Below are positions 2,202 to 23,316 of a DNA stretch of 64,000 nucleotides, one piece after another (position 1 is the first letter of the stretch; every line of letters begins with the position of its first letter). The notes beneath the pieces were generated by a model. That model saw nothing but the letters and a program-made list of their open reading frames with translations. It searched no databases and was not told the origin of the DNA. This stretch comes from an uncultured Candidatus Saccharibacteria bacterium (GTDB taxonomy: Bacteria > Patescibacteriota > Saccharimonadia > Saccharimonadales > Saccharimonadaceae), in the NCBI GenBank assembly GCA_946408595.1, contig CAMJSX010000001.1:120356-184355 (forward strand), read 5' to 3'. A program made the translations under genes and the position numbers.

Positions 2202-4622
2202 ATGAAACGTTTAGTAATAATTGACGGTAAATCAGTGTTTTACCGGGGGTACTATGCTATGGGTGCGTTGTCGCTTTTTGATGGTACGCCGACGGGTGGG
2301 GTTTATGGTTTTGCAGCGATTGCTATGGAAATTGTGAAGAAACTTAATCCGACCAAAGTCGTGGTGGCTTGGGATTCAAAAACATCGGTTTCAAAAAGGC
2401 GGGCGATTTATCCTGAATATAAAGCTGGGCGGGTGAAGCCAGGGGAGGATTTTTATACTCAGATTCCATTGCTTGAGGAGTTGATTCATGACTTAGGTTG
2501 GAATTTCGTGGAGATTGATAATTATGAAGCAGATGATATTATTGGGACATTGAGTCGTGAGGCGGATGAAGCTGGTGACTGGGAGACTTATATTATTTCG
2601 TCCGATCTTGATATGCTGCAAATTGTAGATGACAACACGCATATGTGGCGGATTCTGAAAGGGTTTTCGAATATTGAGCAGATTGATGTGTCTGAGTTTG
2701 AAACTAAATATGGTATAAAGAAAGCGCAGTTTTTGGACCTTAAGTCTTTGAAGGGTGATGCTTCTGATAATATCCCTGGAGTTCCTGGGATTGGTGAAAA
2801 AACGGCGGTGAAGCTTTTAAATGATTATGGCACGCTTGATAATATATATAATAATATAGAGCAAATTCCGGGTTCTGTGAGAGGGAAGCTAGAAGCGGGT
2901 AAGGATTCGGCTTATCTTTCACGCAAACTCGCAAAAATTATGTTTGATGCGCCGGTTGATCTTAATGAACTTCCTGAGTTTTCGTTTGACCGCGAAAAGG
3001 TTATCACGGGCCTCAAGAAACTTGAGTTTAATTCGTTGATTCGAAAATTCGTAAAGGAGGGATCCGAAGCAGCGCTCTCTCGGGACGGGTCGCTCGCGCC
3101 CGTCGTTACGGAGCTCGCGCCCTCATCCTCGGTCGTAACCTCCGGAAGCCCTCGAGTAGCGCTATCTTCGGATCCCCTCGAAAACGCCGTTTCATTACCC
3201 GCAGACGCTATTATCGATTTTGATATTAAAGGTTTGATGCACAATGATAAGAAGGTGGCGGGGGAGATTTTGGCGGGGAAGAAGTCGTTTTGGGATTTGA
3301 ATCAGGCGGCGTTTCTTTTGAATCCGCTGGCTAGGGAGAATCCACAGCTAGTAGTGCCGGAAGAAGAGTATCAAAAACAAGCCTTGGAGTTTAGTAAGTA
3401 TCCTCGACTATATAATATATATACTGATTTTGACTTGCCACTGATTCCAGTGCTTTACAAGATGGAAGAAAAGGGGATGCTGATTGACCGCGGGTATTTT
3501 GAAAACTTGCAAAAGGAATACACTGCTGAGGTGCGTCGTCTTGAACAGGAAGTTTATAAGTTGGCAGGCACAGAGTTTAATCTAAATTCGCCGATTCAGC
3601 TTTCGGAGGTTTTGTTTAACACTTTGAATCTTCCGACTAAGGGTGTTAAGAAGACTTCTCGGGGCTATTCTACTGGAGCTAAAGAGCTGGAGAAACTAAA
3701 AGATTCTCACCCGGTGATTCCGAAGATTATTGAGTATCGTGAGGCGGCGAAACTATTGTCGACATATATTATCCCGATGCCGGATTTGGCCGATGATGAC
3801 GGTCGGGTGCATACGACTTTTACTCAGAATGTGACTGCGACTGGACGTTTAAGTTCGAAGGATCCGAATATGCAAAACATTCCGGTGCGTACTGAGGAAG
3901 GGAAGCGAATCCGTACTGGGTTTGTGGCGCCAGAAGGTAAGGTGCTAGTTTCGGCGGATTATTCACAGTTTGAGCTGAGACTTGCGGCGATTTTAAGTGG
4001 AGACCAAAGCTTAATTGATGATTTTAATAATGGGATCGATATTCACACTAAGACGGCGGCGGAGGCTTTTCACGTTCCGTTTGAGCAGGTGACTAAGGAG
4101 CAACGTCGGGCTGCTAAGGTAGTGAACTTTGGAATACTTTATGGTATGAGCGTGAGGGGTTTGTCGGAAGCAGCGAAGATGCCGTTTTATGAGGCGAAAG
4201 AGTTTATCGAGAATTATTTTAGGCTTAGAGCACCGATTAAACAGAAACTAGAGCAGATTTTGAAGCAGGCTAGGGAAGAGGGATTTGTGGAGACTTTTTA
4301 TGGTCGCCGTCGTCCGACTCCTGACGTGAAATCGTCGAACTTTGTAATTCGGCAGGCGGCTGAGCGGGCGGCGATGAATATGCCGATTCAGGGGACGGAA
4401 GCGGATTTGATGAAGCGAGCGATGATTCACGTGGACAAAGCTTTGCCAGAGGGTGCTGAGCTGGTAATGCAGATTCATGACTCGTTGATCGTGGAATGTG
4501 ATGAAGAGCAGGCTGAGAAAGTGGCAGAAATACTGCAGCGCGAGATGGAACATGTTGCGCCAGAACTTGAAGTTAAACTGGCGGTTGAGGTGACGATTGG
4601 TAAGAATTGGGGTGAACTGTAG
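2202..4622 (+). CDS. polA: DNA polymerase I (5'-3' exonuclease + polymerase; reduced/degenerate 3'-5' exo region)
   Basis: Motifs TGRLSSKDPNMQNIPVRTEEGKRIR, SADYSQFELRLAA, RRAAKVVNFGILYGMS, MQIHDSLIVE; N-terminal FEN-like domain with EADDIIGTL. Confidence 0.95.
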   Translation: MKRLVIIDGKSVFYRGYYAMGALSLFDGTPTGGVYGFAAIAMEIVKKLNPTKVVVAWDSKTSVSKRRAIYPEYKAGRVKPGEDFYTQIPLLEELIHDLGWNFVEIDNYEADDIIGTLSREADEAGDWETYIISSDLDMLQIVDDNTHMWRILKGFSNIEQIDVSEFETKYGIKKAQFLDLKSLKGDASDNIPGVPGIGEKTAVKLLNDYGTLDNIYNNIEQIPGSVRGKLEAGKDSAYLSRKLAKIMFDAPVDLNELPEFSFDREKVITGLKKLEFNSLIRKFVKEGSEAALSRDGSLAPVVTELAPSSSVVTSGSPRVALSSDPLENAVSLPADAIIDFDIKGLMHNDKKVAGEILAGKKSFWDLNQAAFLLNPLARENPQLVVPEEEYQKQALEFSKYPRLYNIYTDFDLPLIPVLYKMEEKGMLIDRGYFENLQKEYTAEVRRLEQEVYKLAGTEFNLNSPIQLSEVLFNTLNLPTKGVKKTSRGYSTGAKELEKLKDSHPVIPKIIEYREAAKLLSTYIIPMPDLADDDGRVHTTFTQNVTATGRLSSKDPNMQNIPVRTEEGKRIRTGFVAPEGKVLVSADYSQFELRLAAILSGDQSLIDDFNNGIDIHTKTAAEAFHVPFEQVTKEQRRAAKVVNFGILYGMSVRGLSEAAKMPFYEAKEFIENYFRLRAPIKQKLEQILKQAREEGFVETFYGRRRPTPDVKSSNFVIRQAAERAAMNMPIQGTEADLMKRAMIHVDKALPEGAELVMQIHDSLIVECDEEQAEKVAEILQREMEHVAPELEVKLAVEVTIGKNWGEL
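3060..3175. repeat. GC-rich palindromic element inside the polA reading frame
   Basis: GGATCCGAAG-c-AGCGCT (3060-3076) is the inverted complement of AGCGCT-at-CTTCGGATCC (3158-3175); internal hairpin CCGT-CGTT-ACGG. Confidence 0.7.
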
Positions 4623-15730: not shown

Positions 15731-15849
15731 CTTTTGATTCTTGAATTTATACTAGTGGTGGTAGTAAGAGCACCGGTCGGTTAGTGCGTTGCGTTGTGCA
15801 GTAACCTTTGTTTCTCGCCTTTTTTCTAAACTTATGTTATACTTACGAT

Positions 15850-16017
15850 GTAAGGCGTTTTAGCAGCTATCACCTGCAAGCCGGCGGAAGAAAGGGAATA
15901 ACCCGATTAGACCCGCTCGTGAATCCGCGTGAGAGATAAATTAAGTGCTGGCAGTAGCCAGAAATTGGATGGTACCGCTTCTAAAGGAGTTCCAATGGCA
16001 AAACCATTGGATTTTTT
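15850..16017 (+). promoter_or_regulatory. T-box riboswitch controlling ileS
   Basis: T-box core TTGGATGGTACCGC (15966-15978), candidate specifier ATC (15869-15871), antiterminator ATTGGA/TCCAAT overlapping terminator TCCAATGG-caaaa-CCATTGGA-TTTTTT; TGTTATACT upstream. Confidence 0.85.
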
Positions 16018-16034
16018 AATTTAAAGGAGACCAA

Positions 16035-18977
16035 ATGAAATACCAAGCGGGCACACGAAGAAAGGCTATCGAATACGAGAAGGCTCTCGTAGATTGGTGG
16101 AAGAAGAATCAAACCTTCGAGAAGTCGGTTGAGAACCGACCGATTGACAAATCTTACGTTTTTTATGATGGTCCTCCGTTTATTACTGGTAATCCGCATC
16201 ATGGTACGTTGCTTAGTTCAATCGTGAAAGATGCTGTGCCACGCTACTGGACCATGAATGGTTACCGTGTGGAGCGAAGATGGGGTTGGGACTGCCATGG
16301 TCTCCCGGCAGAGAACTTCGTCGAAAAGCAACTTGGTATTACTGATCGTCGTGAAATTGGCACTAAGTGGTCGCTTGAGGATTATATTATTAAAGCGCGT
16401 GAGTCCATGGTGGCGAATTCCGAGACTTGGCGCTCGACTATTGACCGCATTGGCCGCTGGGTGGATTTTGATAATTGTTACCGCACGATGAACAAAGATT
16501 TTATGGAATCCGTGTGGTGGGCGTTCAAAAAATTATACGAAGCGGGTAAAATATATGAAGGCCGTAAGGTTCTGATGTATGATACGAAGTTTGCGACGCC
16601 GGTTTCTAAGGCTGAGGTGACCATGGATAACGACGCTTATCAGACCGTGACTGACCCTTCAGCTTACGTGAAATTCAGATTAAAAGGTGCGGAGAATACC
16701 TACTTTCTAGCTTGGACGACTACGCCATGGACGTTGCCGGCCAATATGGCACTCGCTATCAGCCCGGACTTAGATTATGGAGTCTATAATATTGATGGCG
16801 AACAATATATTTTGGCTACAGAGCGTGCAAAAGTTTTGTTCAAAGATGTGAAGCCAACGCAGGCTTTTAAAGGTGCGCACTTTGTGGGTCAAAAGTATGA
16901 GCCAATTATAAAAGTCGCGGATGGTTTGTTTGACTTAGGCCTACGTGGTGATAAAGGCACGATTACTCGTCCGGATACTTATACGGTACTGCTGGGTGAT
17001 TTTGTTTCGGCCGAGGATGGTACGGGCATTGTTCATATTGCTCCGGCTTATGGTGAAGACGATTATGCGCTGGCTCAGAAATACGAGCTGGATTTCGTGG
17101 ATTGTCTGGATGAAAATGGCTACTATCTTCCTGATATGGCAGAGGAGCTCCATGCACTTGGGGTACGTGATACCGACGAACACGGTATTCAGGCCTGGGC
17201 GGGTAATAAATTCATTGCTAAGGTGCTCGAAGAGAAGGGGATTATTTATAAGATTGAGTATATTCAGCACGAATACCCGTTTAATCCACGTTCTAAAGAG
17301 CGGATTATGTACCGGGCGTTTCCGTCTTGGTTCTTTGATATTGAGAACCAGAAGCCTCTGATGCTGGCGGAAAACGAGAATATCAACTGGTTCCCGGATT
17401 ATTTAAAACACGGCCGTTTTGCAAAGAATATCGAACAGGCGCCAGATTGGAATTTGTCGCGCGATCGCTTTTGGGCGACGGCAATGCCGGTATGGAAGGG
17501 CGATAGGGGGTCCATTAAGGTAGTGGGTTCTTATGATGAACTTTATGAGCTGTCTGGTAAGCGCCTTGAGGATTATCACCGTCCATGGGTGGATGCGATA
17601 GAGTTTGATATCGACGGGGAGCATTTTACACGGATTGAGAAGGTGCTAGATTGCTGGTTTGAATCCGGCTCGATGCCGTTTGCGCAGCTCCACTATCCGT
17701 TTGAGAACAAAGAGAAGTTTGAACGTAACTATCCGGCTGATTTCATTGTGGAATATGTCGGGCAGGTGCGGGCTTGGTTCTATTATGTGCATGCGGTGAA
17801 TACGGCGTTGGCTGAGATTGGCGCCTTTGGTGAGAAGGCTAAAAATGGTGCTAAAAATGCTTACAAAAATGTGATCACCACTGGCACACTGGCTGGGAAT
17901 GATGGTCGCAAAATGAGTAAGTCGCTTGGCAATTACACTGATCCGAATATCTTGATGGACCAGTATTCTGCCGATGCTTTGCGGTTCTTGCTACTGAGCT
18001 CCCCGGTGCTTTCTGGCGAGGATTTTGCGTTGCTTGATAAAGATGTCTCTGATGTCAGTCGTAAGCTAGCGATGCTTTGGAATGTGTACGACTTCTTTAC
18101 GACTTATGCCGAGATTGAGGGGATTGATAGCGATGGTTTGAAACTGGACGCTAAGAATCCTCTGGATGCTTGGATTGTCTCCCGTGCTTATCAGCTTCGT
18201 GATGCCATTACTGAGGGAATGGAAGAATATAATATCCCGAAGGCGCTTGAGGACGTTTTAACGTTCATTGACGATCTTTCCAACTGGTTTGTGCGTCGTT
18301 CGCGTCGTCGTTTCTCTAAAAATGAGGACGAGCAGGATAAAATGGCGGCCTTTGCCACGCTTTACTATATATTAATATATATAGCTAAGCTGTTGGCGCC
18401 GTTTACGCCGTTCTTGTCAGAGGAGCTATATCAGAAGATGACTGGTAGTGGTGAGTCTATCCATCTCCTAGACTGGCCAGAAGCGGGCGTGATTGACACC
18501 GAGGTGCTTGACCAGATGTCTCGTACCCGTCAGATTATTACCGATGCATTGGCGCTTCGGATGCAAAAAACCGATACCGAAGACCAAATTAAGGTACGTC
18601 AGCCTTTGTCTAAACTAGTTTATACTGGCGATAAGCTGCCGGATTTCTATGAGCAGATAATTATGGATGAAGTAAACGTGAAGAAGGTCGAAAACGGCTC
18701 AGAATTCACGCTTGATAAGACGCTGACCGAGGAGCTAAAGAGGGAAGGGTATGCCCGTGACCTGATTCGTGCTATCCAGTCGGCTCGTAAGAATGCTAAG
18801 CTGAATATGGATGATCGGATTAGGTTGTCGCTGTCGATTGACCTTCCAGCTGGTTTTGAAGGATTAGTATTATCTGAGGTACTAGCTGATTCGTTTGAGA
18901 AGGGAGCTAACTACGCTCACGATGAGATTGCTAAGGTTTCCGGCGAAAATGTCACGATTTCATTAGAAAAAATATAA
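16035..18977 (+). CDS. ileS: isoleucyl-tRNA synthetase
   Basis: GPPFITGNPHHGTLL, WGWDCHGLPAENFVEK, GRKMSKSLGNYTDP. Confidence 0.96.
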   Translation: MKYQAGTRRKAIEYEKALVDWWKKNQTFEKSVENRPIDKSYVFYDGPPFITGNPHHGTLLSSIVKDAVPRYWTMNGYRVERRWGWDCHGLPAENFVEKQLGITDRREIGTKWSLEDYIIKARESMVANSETWRSTIDRIGRWVDFDNCYRTMNKDFMESVWWAFKKLYEAGKIYEGRKVLMYDTKFATPVSKAEVTMDNDAYQTVTDPSAYVKFRLKGAENTYFLAWTTTPWTLPANMALAISPDLDYGVYNIDGEQYILATERAKVLFKDVKPTQAFKGAHFVGQKYEPIIKVADGLFDLGLRGDKGTITRPDTYTVLLGDFVSAEDGTGIVHIAPAYGEDDYALAQKYELDFVDCLDENGYYLPDMAEELHALGVRDTDEHGIQAWAGNKFIAKVLEEKGIIYKIEYIQHEYPFNPRSKERIMYRAFPSWFFDIENQKPLMLAENENINWFPDYLKHGRFAKNIEQAPDWNLSRDRFWATAMPVWKGDRGSIKVVGSYDELYELSGKRLEDYHRPWVDAIEFDIDGEHFTRIEKVLDCWFESGSMPFAQLHYPFENKEKFERNYPADFIVEYVGQVRAWFYYVHAVNTALAEIGAFGEKAKNGAKNAYKNVITTGTLAGNDGRKMSKSLGNYTDPNILMDQYSADALRFLLLSSPVLSGEDFALLDKDVSDVSRKLAMLWNVYDFFTTYAEIEGIDSDGLKLDAKNPLDAWIVSRAYQLRDAITEGMEEYNIPKALEDVLTFIDDLSNWFVRRSRRRFSKNEDEQDKMAAFATLYYILIYIAKLLAPFTPFLSEELYQKMTGSGESIHLLDWPEAGVIDTEVLDQMSRTRQIITDALALRMQKTDTEDQIKVRQPLSKLVYTGDKLPDFYEQIIMDEVNVKKVENGSEFTLDKTLTEELKREGYARDLIRAIQSARKNAKLNMDDRIRLSLSIDLPAGFEGLVLSEVLADSFEKGANYAHDEIAKVSGENVTISLEKI

Positions 18978-19658: not shown

Positions 19659-19985
19659 ATGGAAAATTATCTCATTGGGCGCGATACCCTCGGCAAGCTA
19701 GTCGATCAACTGATCGCCCAGAAATATCCCAATCAATCTCCGGATTCATTAAATGAAATTCGTGAGGATAATATCAGGAAGTTAGACGATCAGATTAGCG
19801 AGGCTATTTTTGGTGGTCTAAACGATGAACAACTTGACGAGATAAATGCAATGTTTGATCGAGAAGAAAATAACCCATCGGCCTTTCAAATTTTTTTCAA
19901 GAACGCTGGTATTGATTTGGAACAAGTTATCAAAGATGAAATGTCAAAGTTTAGCCAGGAATTCTTAGGAGGTGAAAATGCATAA
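19659..19985 (+). CDS. hypothetical protein of a short acidic family (possibly DUF5663-like)
   Basis: 108 aa; acidic; overlaps the start of the next gene. Confidence 0.55.
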   Translation: MENYLIGRDTLGKLVDQLIAQKYPNQSPDSLNEIREDNIRKLDDQISEAIFGGLNDEQLDEINAMFDREENNPSAFQIFFKNAGIDLEQVIKDEMSKFSQEFLGGENA

Positions 19986-21837
19986 TTCAGAAATATTCAG
20001 TGGTGGTAGTGGAGAAGCTGGCGCAAATAAAGGTGAAGCAACTAAGAAATATGAAGAGAGGGGAGAAAAAGTATTAAGTGCGGCTGAGAGAAAAGCTCTT
20101 TTGAAGGAAAAAGAGGAATTGTTGGCTAGGAGAGCCGAGATTGATGCAGAGCTTGCAGCTTTGGATAGCGATGAACAGAAAGAGCCAGAATCTTCGGAGC
20201 CGGAACCATCTGGGCAACCAGAAGGTACAACGGATCCGGAAGGGGCATCCGACCCAGAGGGAGCGACAGACCCAGAAGGAACATCTGATCCAGAAGGTGG
20301 GGCAACAGACCCTGAAGGAACGCCTGAACCGGAGGGTGGTACATCAACTCCACAAGGTGGCGAGAACAACGCTACACCAGAGGGGCAGCATAGAGCTAAG
20401 ATTGAATATGTCAAGAAGAGGGCCAAGAAAAATTCAGGCGTTAGAGATGTTGTAATAGGGGCTGCGACCATTGCCTTAGCAGGATTTTTGGGCGTGGCGA
20501 TTGGTACAAATGGATTCAATGTTGCTCAAAACAATAATCAGGCACCGCAAGGTTCGTTGAACCCTACTGCAATTGTCCAAACTGCTCAGCCAGAGAGAGC
20601 TCCATCGCCGGATGGCACGACATCGCCAGATGGTGCAATACTACCGGATGGCACAATAATACCAGGCAGCACTACTGCTAATGAGCAAGATGCTTCCGCT
20701 ACAGAAAATGAAGAGAAAGAAAAAGGCATCAAAGACGGATATGGCGAACGTGGTATGTGGCTTTCCCAGAACAAGGAACATGATTATGATTATGGTGACG
20801 CCAAGGAAGTTGGTGAAGTGTGCGACCATGATGAAGTTGAGATGTTGAAATACACCGCCGACAATCAGGTTGAAAGCCTTGCTGATTATATGGCTGAATT
20901 CCCAGAAGAGTTATGTCCGGAAGGATTCTATGGACTGAACCCTCGTGAGATAGAGAAGAAACTTGAAAGCCTTACCCCTGATGAATATAAGAAGGTTAAG
21001 GCGCAGGCGATGCATGCTTTGGACGAAGCTTATACTCGTGCCACTGTGACGCAGCGTGATTATCATCATTATGGCATGTTGCTTGGCGATGAAAAAGGCG
21101 CTGTGGTGCATGAAAACATGCAACTTGTTGACAGAGGTATTGGCCCAGGTGTTGAGGTTGTTGAGTTCTATTGGGTTGATAAAGATGGTAAAGAAATCGG
21201 TTCAATGCTCGTGAATATTCGTCGTACTTCTGCGAATGAGAAGGGCGAAGTTGATGAGCACGAAGGTGGTTTAGAGGTATTAAGAGTTGGTACTACTGAT
21301 CAGGGGCCTGAAACTCCTCCAACTCCACCGACTCCACCAACTCCTCCAACGCCAGAGACTCCAGAACCAAAGAAGCCGGAAGAGGAAATTGAGCATGCTG
21401 GACCACGTGTCGATCAGCAAGGTCTTGATGAAGAAAAAACTCCAGCTACTAAGCTAGAAGATGATCAAGCTGGTTTTGAAGGAATAGAACAACAAGAGAG
21501 AAAAGATGAGGCTGAAGCGGCAGAGGCAGCTAGAATCGCTGCCGAGCAAGCTGAAAAGCAAAGAAAGGCAGAAGAGGAAGCCGCTGCTCGTCGTGCGGCT
21601 GAGCAAGCAGAAGCAGAAGAGGCTGCGCGTAAAGCTGATGAGGCTGCTCGAAAGGCAACAGAGGAAGCTAGTAAGCAACAATCAGAAGCTGCCGAAGCTG
21701 AGCGTGCTGCTGATGATGAAGCAGCAAAGAGGGAAGCTGCTCAAAGAGCCGCTGATGAAGCCGCCCAAAGAGGCGCTAAAGAAGCTGACGAAAATGCCAA
21801 TGCTTCGGCTAGTGAAAGAGCAAACATAGATTATTAA
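19978..21837 (+). CDS. membrane protein with PEG-type repeats, one TM, globular middle and Ala/Glu coiled-coil tail
   Basis: TTDPEGASDPEGATDPEGTSDPEGG repeats; TM VVIGAATIALAGFLGVAIG; AGGAGGTG SD before ATG 19978. Confidence 0.65.
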   Translation: MHNSEIFSGGSGEAGANKGEATKKYEERGEKVLSAAERKALLKEKEELLARRAEIDAELAALDSDEQKEPESSEPEPSGQPEGTTDPEGASDPEGATDPEGTSDPEGGATDPEGTPEPEGGTSTPQGGENNATPEGQHRAKIEYVKKRAKKNSGVRDVVIGAATIALAGFLGVAIGTNGFNVAQNNNQAPQGSLNPTAIVQTAQPERAPSPDGTTSPDGAILPDGTIIPGSTTANEQDASATENEEKEKGIKDGYGERGMWLSQNKEHDYDYGDAKEVGEVCDHDEVEMLKYTADNQVESLADYMAEFPEELCPEGFYGLNPREIEKKLESLTPDEYKKVKAQAMHALDEAYTRATVTQRDYHHYGMLLGDEKGAVVHENMQLVDRGIGPGVEVVEFYWVDKDGKEIGSMLVNIRRTSANEKGEVDEHEGGLEVLRVGTTDQGPETPPTPPTPPTPPTPETPEPKKPEEEIEHAGPRVDQQGLDEEKTPATKLEDDQAGFEGIEQQERKDEAEAAEAARIAAEQAEKQRKAEEEAAARRAAEQAEAEEAARKADEAARKATEEASKQQSEAAEAERAADDEAAKREAAQRAADEAAQRGAKEADENANASASERANIDY

Positions 21838-21855
21838 AAGGAAAGGAAGCCAAAG

Positions 21856-23316
21856 ATGAAAAAAATTATCACAAAACTAACGGTGGCGATACTAGCGGTA
21901 CTAGCTGCTTTTGGGTTGGCAAGTCCTACCTTGGCTTGGGGCCCAGAACGAACGACCTATACCAATGAGTCGCCAGCCACTTATGCAACATTTAACTCGA
22001 TTACCAACAACGCTGCTGTAGGTGATGAACGAAACTTCGTGAGAGTTGGTGAGGCCAATTCGACCGCGCCATACACAGACGAAATTGAAGTCGTCCCAGG
22101 TAAGGAATATGAGGTGTACATTTATTATCACAATGATGCCGCCTCGAACACAAATGCTAGCGGATATGGTATTGCTACAAATACTAAACTTTCTTCATCT
22201 TATCCAACAAAGCTCACTCCTGGGGAAAGAGGTATGATTTCTGGGATTATTTCCTGGAGTTATGTTAACCCAAGTGATGATAGCGTGAACACTGGTACGG
22301 TGTGGGACGAAGCTTACCTTACGACCAAATCCGACAATGTAGTATTGAGATATAAAACTGGTACGGCGGTGATCCACAATGGCGGTAAAGCCAATGGCTC
22401 GGTTCTTTCGACAAATCTGTTTACTAAAGACGGTACGCCAATCGGATATAACAAGTTGGCTGGTACTATTCCAGGCTGTGCGGAGTATTCGGGCTATATT
22501 ACTTACACCCTCGTAGCAGAAAAAGTTGATGCATCGCTAGAAAAATATGTTTCTACTGATGGTACGAATTGGCAAAAGAATGTCACAGTGAAACCGGGTG
22601 ATTACGTTACATATAAAGTGGTGTTCAAAAACACTGGAAACACCAAGCTCACTAATGTAATTTTTAAAGATGTGCATGACGGTGGTCTTAGTCTCAGATC
22701 TGGCAGCACAAAGGTTTATGATGTTAATAATGTTGATGGGAAAAAGATTGACGATATATTAGATTTGAGTGGTTATAATGTTGGTGATGTGGCTCCTTCT
22801 GCGCTTGTCCAAATTATCTATCAAGATAAGGTTTCTACTGATAAAGCTTATTGTGAAAATACTTTGAACAACACTATTACGGTAAGCTATAATTCGAACT
22901 TATCAAAAGAAGATAGTGCAAGCGTGACAGTGAAATGTGACAAGCCAGTACCTCCTTGTGAGGCTGATCCAAGTTTGCCAGAATGCCAAGAAAAACCCGA
23001 TTGTACAACTAATCCAGAACTACCAGAATGCCAAGAAAAACCAGATTGTACAACTAACCCAGAGTTGCCGGAATGTCAGGAGAAACCCGATTGTACAACC
23101 AATCCAGAACTACCGGAATGCCAAGAAAAACCAACTTGCGACACTAATCCAGAAATGGAAGGTTGTGAGACCCCAGAAGAAATCGTTAGCACTGGTCCTC
23201 TTGAAATTGTTTTAGCGATAGTGATTATACTTGGCATTATCGGTGGCGGATACTACTTCTATCATACTCGTAAGACCTTAAAGGCCGTTGAGAATAAGGT
23301 TTCTGGTGATAGATAA
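21856..23316 (+). CDS. signal-peptide surface protein with DUF11-like domain, Cys-rich repeats and C-terminal TM anchor
   Basis: Signal peptide; TYKVVFKNTGNTKLTNVIFKDV; repeats DCTTNPELPECQEKP; STGPLEIVLAIVIILGIIGGGYYFYHTRK. Confidence 0.75.
   Translation: MKKIITKLTVAILAVLAAFGLASPTLAWGPERTTYTNESPATYATFNSITNNAAVGDERNFVRVGEANSTAPYTDEIEVVPGKEYEVYIYYHNDAASNTNASGYGIATNTKLSSSYPTKLTPGERGMISGIISWSYVNPSDDSVNTGTVWDEAYLTTKSDNVVLRYKTGTAVIHNGGKANGSVLSTNLFTKDGTPIGYNKLAGTIPGCAEYSGYITYTLVAEKVDASLEKYVSTDGTNWQKNVTVKPGDYVTYKVVFKNTGNTKLTNVIFKDVHDGGLSLRSGSTKVYDVNNVDGKKIDDILDLSGYNVGDVAPSALVQIIYQDKVSTDKAYCENTLNNTITVSYNSNLSKEDSASVTVKCDKPVPPCEADPSLPECQEKPDCTTNPELPECQEKPDCTTNPELPECQEKPDCTTNPELPECQEKPTCDTNPEMEGCETPEEIVSTGPLEIVLAIVIILGIIGGGYYFYHTRKTLKAVENKVSGDR
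22956..23169 (+). repeat. 45-bp coding tandem repeat (DCTTNPELPECQEKP), about 4-5 units
   Basis: Repeats read directly in DNA and protein. Confidence 0.9.

Follow-up and report, generated by a model that had tools for sequence, protein, structure and literature searches.

Does the space ahead of ileS in a Candidatus Saccharibacteria bacterium hold a switch that governs this gene and, if so, of what kind? The question is raised by a stretch of 64,000 nucleotides of its genome (the window), in which ileS occupies positions 16035-18977 (+), starts with ATG at 16035 and encodes an isoleucine--tRNA ligase of 980 amino acids that matches TIGR00392 with 767.2 bits (cut-off 621.4). The 304 bases separating it from the end of the preceding open reading frame (15730) contain no convincing gene. 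An initial annotation, made from the sequence alone, had placed a transcriptional T-box riboswitch there, in a genome of the Candidate Phyla Radiation (CPR) type; all of its letters and coordinates were re-read and are in place, and a Saccharibacterium is indeed a host of that type. The leader, at 15854-16017, is very probably a T-box riboswitch in which a minimal, class III-like tRNA-binding domain is joined to a transcriptional platform that controls ileS.

In a relaxed scan of 15800-16040 the T-box covariance model RF00230 matched 15860-15997 (+) over its full length (model positions 1-219) with 40.9 bits and E 4.8e-8, and the leader is the sole T-box match at E <= 1e-3 in the whole genome (737,758 bases, 99% complete). 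The free energy of the leader is by itself unremarkable (z -0.44) and energy z-scores are uninformative; the weight of evidence is placed on conservation and covariation. These were measured in an alignment of 36 Ile-type leaders of relatives, Candidatus Saccharibacteria from ruminant guts for the most part, against a structure that had been drawn up by hand on the window sequence. The Rfam search and the comparison of leaders had both been set beforehand as tests of the T-box, and neither refuted it.

It is clear from the alignment that the hand-written structure is maintained. It pairs in 93.1% of cells, compared with 31-43% when the partner is slid by 1-3 columns; cells changed on both sides number 201, as against 22-46 in the slid controls, and the covariation score is 0.563, as against 0.07-0.15. 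None of 500 shuffles equalled the real alignment on any measure. Two-sided changes occur at 22 of the 29 pairs, and the eight helices, pseudoknot included, are each more than 77% paired. The window keeps all the invariant positions, namely the specifier, the UAGA of Stem II, the purine motif around Stem III and UGGUACC.

The tRNA-binding part is short. Stem I spans 15854-15882 (all features given here are on the + strand), a domain of 29 nucleotides in which a kink-turn-like internal loop separates a basal helix (GGC 15854-15856 with GCC 15880-15882) from an apical helix of 4 base pairs (GCAG 15863-15866 with CUGC 15874-15877); the suspicion that the leader is a compact variant without a full canonical stem I thus proved correct. 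The apical helix is 99.3% paired, as GCAG/CUGC, GUGG/CCAC or GUCG/CGAC, and the basal helix 77.8%, with two-sided changes at all 3 of its pairs. In the 7-nucleotide apical loop CUAUCAC (within GCAG-CTATCAC-CTGC, 15863-15877) the isoleucine specifier AUC lies at 15869-15871 and is followed by A; it is invariant (alignment A23-T24-C25). Stem II (15884-15916; GCGG 15884-15887 with CCGC 15913-15916) is 87.5% paired with two-sided changes at 4 of 4 pairs, and encloses the S-turn-like strands AAGAA and AUUAGA, of which UAGA is invariant; these probably form an S-turn. The Stem IIA/B pseudoknot follows at 15918-15937, with pairs C15918-G15929 and G15919-C15928 and a helix of AUC (15923-15925) with GAU (15935-15937) that is 79.4% paired and changes on both sides at 3 of 3 pairs, for example AUC/GAU, AGC/GCU and GCC/GGC.

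Stem III with its flanks occupies 15943-15963. The stem itself (CUGGC 15948-15952 with GCCAG 15957-15961) is 97.9% paired, with two-sided changes at 4 of 4 counted pairs, and the flanking AAGUG (15943-15947) and AA (15962-15963) supply the RRRxG-stem III-AA motif of T-boxes, a purine motif that senses aminoacylation (PMC7583486); the A, G and G on the 5' side and both A residues on the 3' side are invariant. The T-box core TGGATGGTACCGC (15966-15978) lies within the antiterminator (15964-15996), whose helices A1 (AUUGGA 15964-15969 with UCCAAU 15991-15996) and A2 (15977-15981 with 15986-15990) are both 100% paired, with two-sided changes at 4 of 6 pairs in A1 and 2 of 3 in A2. Between the strands of A1 is the bulge UGGUACC (15970-15976), whose UGGUA is invariant and whose UGGU is the predicted partner of the 3' ACCA of uncharged tRNA-Ile. 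The basal GGC/GCC of Stem I, the S-turn-like motif, the pseudoknot, Stem III with its purine motif and helix A2 are all additions to the initial annotation.

The specificity of the switch can be read at two places. The genome encodes a tRNA-Ile with anticodon GAU and the end A73CCA, which fits both the specifier AUC and the bulge UGGU, the fourth bulge base U being complementary to A73; specifier, cognate tRNA and target gene agree on the Ile specificity that had been proposed. Among the relatives, moreover, the fourth bulge base follows the discriminator base in four further specificities. Leaders of thrS carry the loop specifier ACC or ACU and the bulge UGGA, those of aspS carry GAC and UGGC, the leader of an operon containing hisS carries CAC and UGGG, and those of valS carry GUC and UGGU; the discriminators of the corresponding tRNAs in the window genome are U73 (Thr), G73 (Asp), C73 (His) and A73 (Val, and likewise Ile). 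Outside the Ile set, specifiers were assigned by eye; for L045 and L254 (thrS) and L243 (aspS) the reading covers the gene and the UGGN base. The specifier thus changes in step with the fourth bulge base and the target gene, as T-box function demands. A T-box-like scaffold could instead respond to another tRNA or to a metabolite, but specifier, discriminator match and target gene all point to isoleucine and the other amino acids obey the same rule, which leaves this the least probable of the alternatives considered, with hardly any claim on belief. The leader is almost certainly an Ile-specific T-box, to judge by these matches.

Downstream of the antiterminator the expression platform is an intrinsic terminator, UCCAAUGG-CAAAA-CCAUUGGA followed by U6 (15991-16017), with arms TCCAATGG (15991-15998) and CCATTGGA (16004-16011) and the T6 tract at 16012-16017. 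Its 5' arm takes in the 3' strand of A1, so that the two hairpins share the strand 15991-15996 and are mutually exclusive (-6.5 kcal/mol for the antiterminator and -10.1 kcal/mol for the terminator, each folded alone); the competition first described between ATTGGA/TCCAAT and the terminator is correct in letters and coordinates. A terminator scan detects the hairpin and T-tract, with 2 sites in 400 bases as against 0.4 in shuffles. When the transcript ends at 15997, the unconstrained fold consists of Stems I, II, IIA and III and the antiterminator, and when it is extended to 16011 or beyond the minimum-energy fold moves to the terminator.

The minimal Stem I raises the possibility that the T-box acts on translation, as T-boxes of this build in Actinobacteria mostly do, and that the hairpin with T6 is incidental. 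In the whole-leader fold G16026-G16027 are mostly paired, as that explanation would have it. However, these bases belong to a Shine-Dalgarno sequence (AAAGGAG, 16023-16029) that lies 3' of the terminator and takes part in neither the antiterminator nor its competitor. Furthermore, close relatives retain the same layout, a hairpin and T-tract that overlap A1, and the other hairpins found in relatives likewise end in T-tracts. Translational control is therefore improbable. Since the Shine-Dalgarno sequence is outside the switching strands, control of ileS by this leader is almost certainly transcriptional, as the initial annotation had it.

Transcription would begin near 15850, to judge from an extended -10 element TGTTATACT (15835-15843; hexamer TATACT 15838-15843), which had been noted at the 5' end of the leader and is kept in most relatives at a near-fixed distance before Stem I (mean best score 6.9 out of 8, compared with 5.5, maximum 5.8, in shuffles). 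No -35 box, and so no sigma-70 promoter with one, was found at the leader; the extended -10 alone is supported.

These elements suggest the following mechanism. As the leader is transcribed, AUC in the apical loop of the short Stem I would pair with the GAU anticodon of tRNA-Ile, and Stem II, with its S-turn, and the IIA/B pseudoknot would clamp the codon-anticodon duplex; neither a long Stem I nor an elbow-binding module would be needed. With an uncharged tRNA, the free ACCA end would pair with UGGU, the antiterminator would form beside Stem III and the polymerase would enter ileS. If the tRNA carries isoleucine, the amino acid would prevent the ACCA pairing, UCCAAU would take its downstream partner and transcription would stop at 16012-16017. 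We infer, then, that the leader binds tRNA-Ile, discriminates between its charged and uncharged forms and allows readthrough in a tRNA-dependent manner.

Several observations weigh against a working T-box at this locus. The RF00230 score is below the curated gathering cut-off of 93 bits, and an Rfam scan at that default reported no T-box for the leader. Stem I has a degenerate kink-turn in the window, with UA/AA in place of the GA/GA of most relatives. A covariance model of the relatives (R1) gives the window 141.9 bits, among the highest of 164 genomes, but it was built from the 36-leader alignment, which includes the window, and therefore this score is not independent evidence. For fast tRNA capture, transcriptional T-boxes are held generally to depend on a long Stem I bearing the IDTM, an elbow-binding module (PMC7583486), and this predicts poor function for so minimal a build. 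Finally, the element is missing from 11 of the 16 sampled genomes of its own genus and is therefore dispensable.

Taken together, the degenerate kink-turn, the replacement of the leader by a leaderless promoter in many relatives of the same genus and a truncated remnant at one locus would suit a decaying relic, an ancestral T-box that has lost tRNA binding in this lineage and whose hairpin is now a weak constitutive attenuator. An actual apparent remnant looks quite different, however: L146, at 18.8 bits, no longer has the specifier, whereas the window retains all the invariant positions and scores 141.9 bits with the model that includes it. Decay is thus very improbable, somewhat more so than translational control, and a functional T-box remains the preferred reading. 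The remnant itself lies before ileS at 2945-3037 of L146; its Stem I is without the Ile specifier, and the 5' strand of Stem II appears to have turned into a ribosome-binding site.

How widely, and how evenly, is the element distributed? Of 198 sampled genomes of the family, 59 have an RF00230 match, and the R1 model detects the element in 164, covering 55 of 61 genera. A minimal sensor joined to a transcription stop, unusual according to the reviews, is common in these tiny epibiont bacteria. The element is also patchy. It is carried by 25 of 80 named ileS loci (117-145 bits); in 42 of the remaining loci a loose pattern places a -10 box within a few bases upstream of the ATG, so close that ileS there is probably leaderless. 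In L129, L130, L132, L133, L135, L151, L153 and others an extended -10 TATAAT, just before position 3001, ends about 6 bases before the ATG. On a tree of IleRS the T-box and leaderless states interchange 11 times, at least 7 of them on well-supported branches, a count that is silent on gain as against loss; close relatives (L162/L181, L154/L167) differ in its presence.

In many genera small variable genes stand between the Ile T-box and ileS (L222-L241; GNAT, NUDIX, CYTH-like, tag glycosylase and HAD, named by eye), often with overlapping stop and start codons. The idea that the GNAT, NUDIX, CYTH, tag and HAD first genes are regulon members in their own right was rejected: in the 19 loci checked, ileS lies further along the same strand, within the same operon. 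In L224, L225 and L239 the ileS reading frames are 1104-1378 amino acids long, with long IleRS insertions after residue ~217 of the window protein.

Beyond the family, RF00230 matches in 129 of 384 sampled Patescibacteria genomes, 13 of them above the curated cut-off and with ordinary long forms among them. The same compact build recurs in other families of Patescibacteria, in L118, L242, L245 and L258 (ileS or AUC) and in L251 and L257 (aspS). Long and short T-boxes precede many other genes in other Patescibacteria (L097-L126, L242-L261), up to five per genome; the targets include the Asp, Thr and Val synthetases and, in L122, an apparent amino-acid dehydrogenase.

Not all Ile-type relatives share the platform of the window. 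In 23 of them Stem III apparently supplies the 5' arm of the terminator, through its loop and 3' strand, and the terminator loop contains the intact antiterminator. These helices reach 17 base pairs in L026 and 19 in L033, exceed all 300 shuffles in 17 of the 23 leaders (that of L043 is no better than chance) and show compensatory pairs in their arms. Loci of this type include L026 (1501-1700), L033, L010, L013, L015, L030, L034, L046, L054, L058, L061, L062 and L259, the last from another family of the order. In such leaders the structure that uncharged tRNA would need to stabilise is Stem III and not the antiterminator. A third type of terminator is seen in L029, L031, L037, L040 and L050, where CCCGCCC of the A2 region is matched by a downstream GGGCGGG and then a T-tract. 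On balance we lean towards the view that a large branch of T-boxes has gone little noticed in Patescibacteria, one whose minimal class III aptamer acts on transcription, contrary to the supposed need of co-transcriptional switching for an elbow-binding long Stem I. In some members of this branch, on the same view, the terminator is drawn from Stem III, so that uncharged tRNA would have to keep Stem III in place and not the antiterminator.

The amino acid in question is one that this organism seems unable to make. Both ilvC and ilvD are absent from the genome and present in all 14 control genomes; the auxotrophy that had been supposed is therefore borne out for isoleucine, which on this gene content is not made by the usual route and must come from outside. 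The switch may accordingly be a sensor of isoleucine derived from the host. Elsewhere in the window, at 19972-23316, there are large repeat-bearing open reading frames (DPEGTTDPEGASDPEG; KPDCTTNPELPECQE), possibly for surface proteins.

A minimal tRNA sensor of ~165 nucleotides matters in several respects. It offers auxotrophic epibionts with few known regulators a route by which synthetase expression could be tied to externally supplied amino acids. Saccharibacteria also lack inducible expression (PMC11665869), and leaders of this kind are candidates for charging-dependent switches in genetic tools for them. Moreover, natural transcriptional T-boxes without a long Stem I make the argument that tRNA must be captured before the terminator (PMC7583486) directly testable. 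We found no open-access paper on T-boxes in Saccharibacteria, Patescibacteria or the CPR; since RF00230 matches across the phylum and ordinary long forms are included, CPR T-boxes as such may already be in databases.

Compared with the known classes, the leader is nearest in its aptamer to class III (the 'ultrashort' Stem I ileS T-boxes of Nocardia farcinica and Mycobacterium), with which it shares a short Stem I without the IDTM, AUC in the apical loop, the Stem II domain, the IIA/B pseudoknot and ileS as target. It differs in host, a Saccharibacterium rather than an Actinobacterium, in its loop of 7 nucleotides as against the 5-6 described, and above all in its platform, an intrinsic terminator where known members are mostly translational (PMC10482949, PMC7583486); the ultrashort Stem I is described as a trait of translational T-boxes (PMC7583486), and class III, with its apical-loop specifier, as mostly regulating translation (PMC10482949). 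Class IV (Actinomyces odontolyticus ileS, intermediate Stem I) likewise has Stem II and no IDTM, but it places the specifier in a bulge at the side, between two helices of Stem I, and the window has it in a terminal loop; the valS relatives L006 and L008 are closer in appearance to this class. With class I (the Bacillus subtilis tyrS type, RF00230) the leader has in common Stem II, IIA/B, Stem III, the antiterminator with its UGGN bulge and a terminator competing with helix A1, but it lacks the long, IDTM-bearing Stem I of that class, for which the 29 nucleotides at 15854-15882 leave no room. A build of this kind for transcription is without description in the open-access literature examined; by its predicted structure, the leader combines an aptamer resembling that of class III with a platform resembling that of class I.
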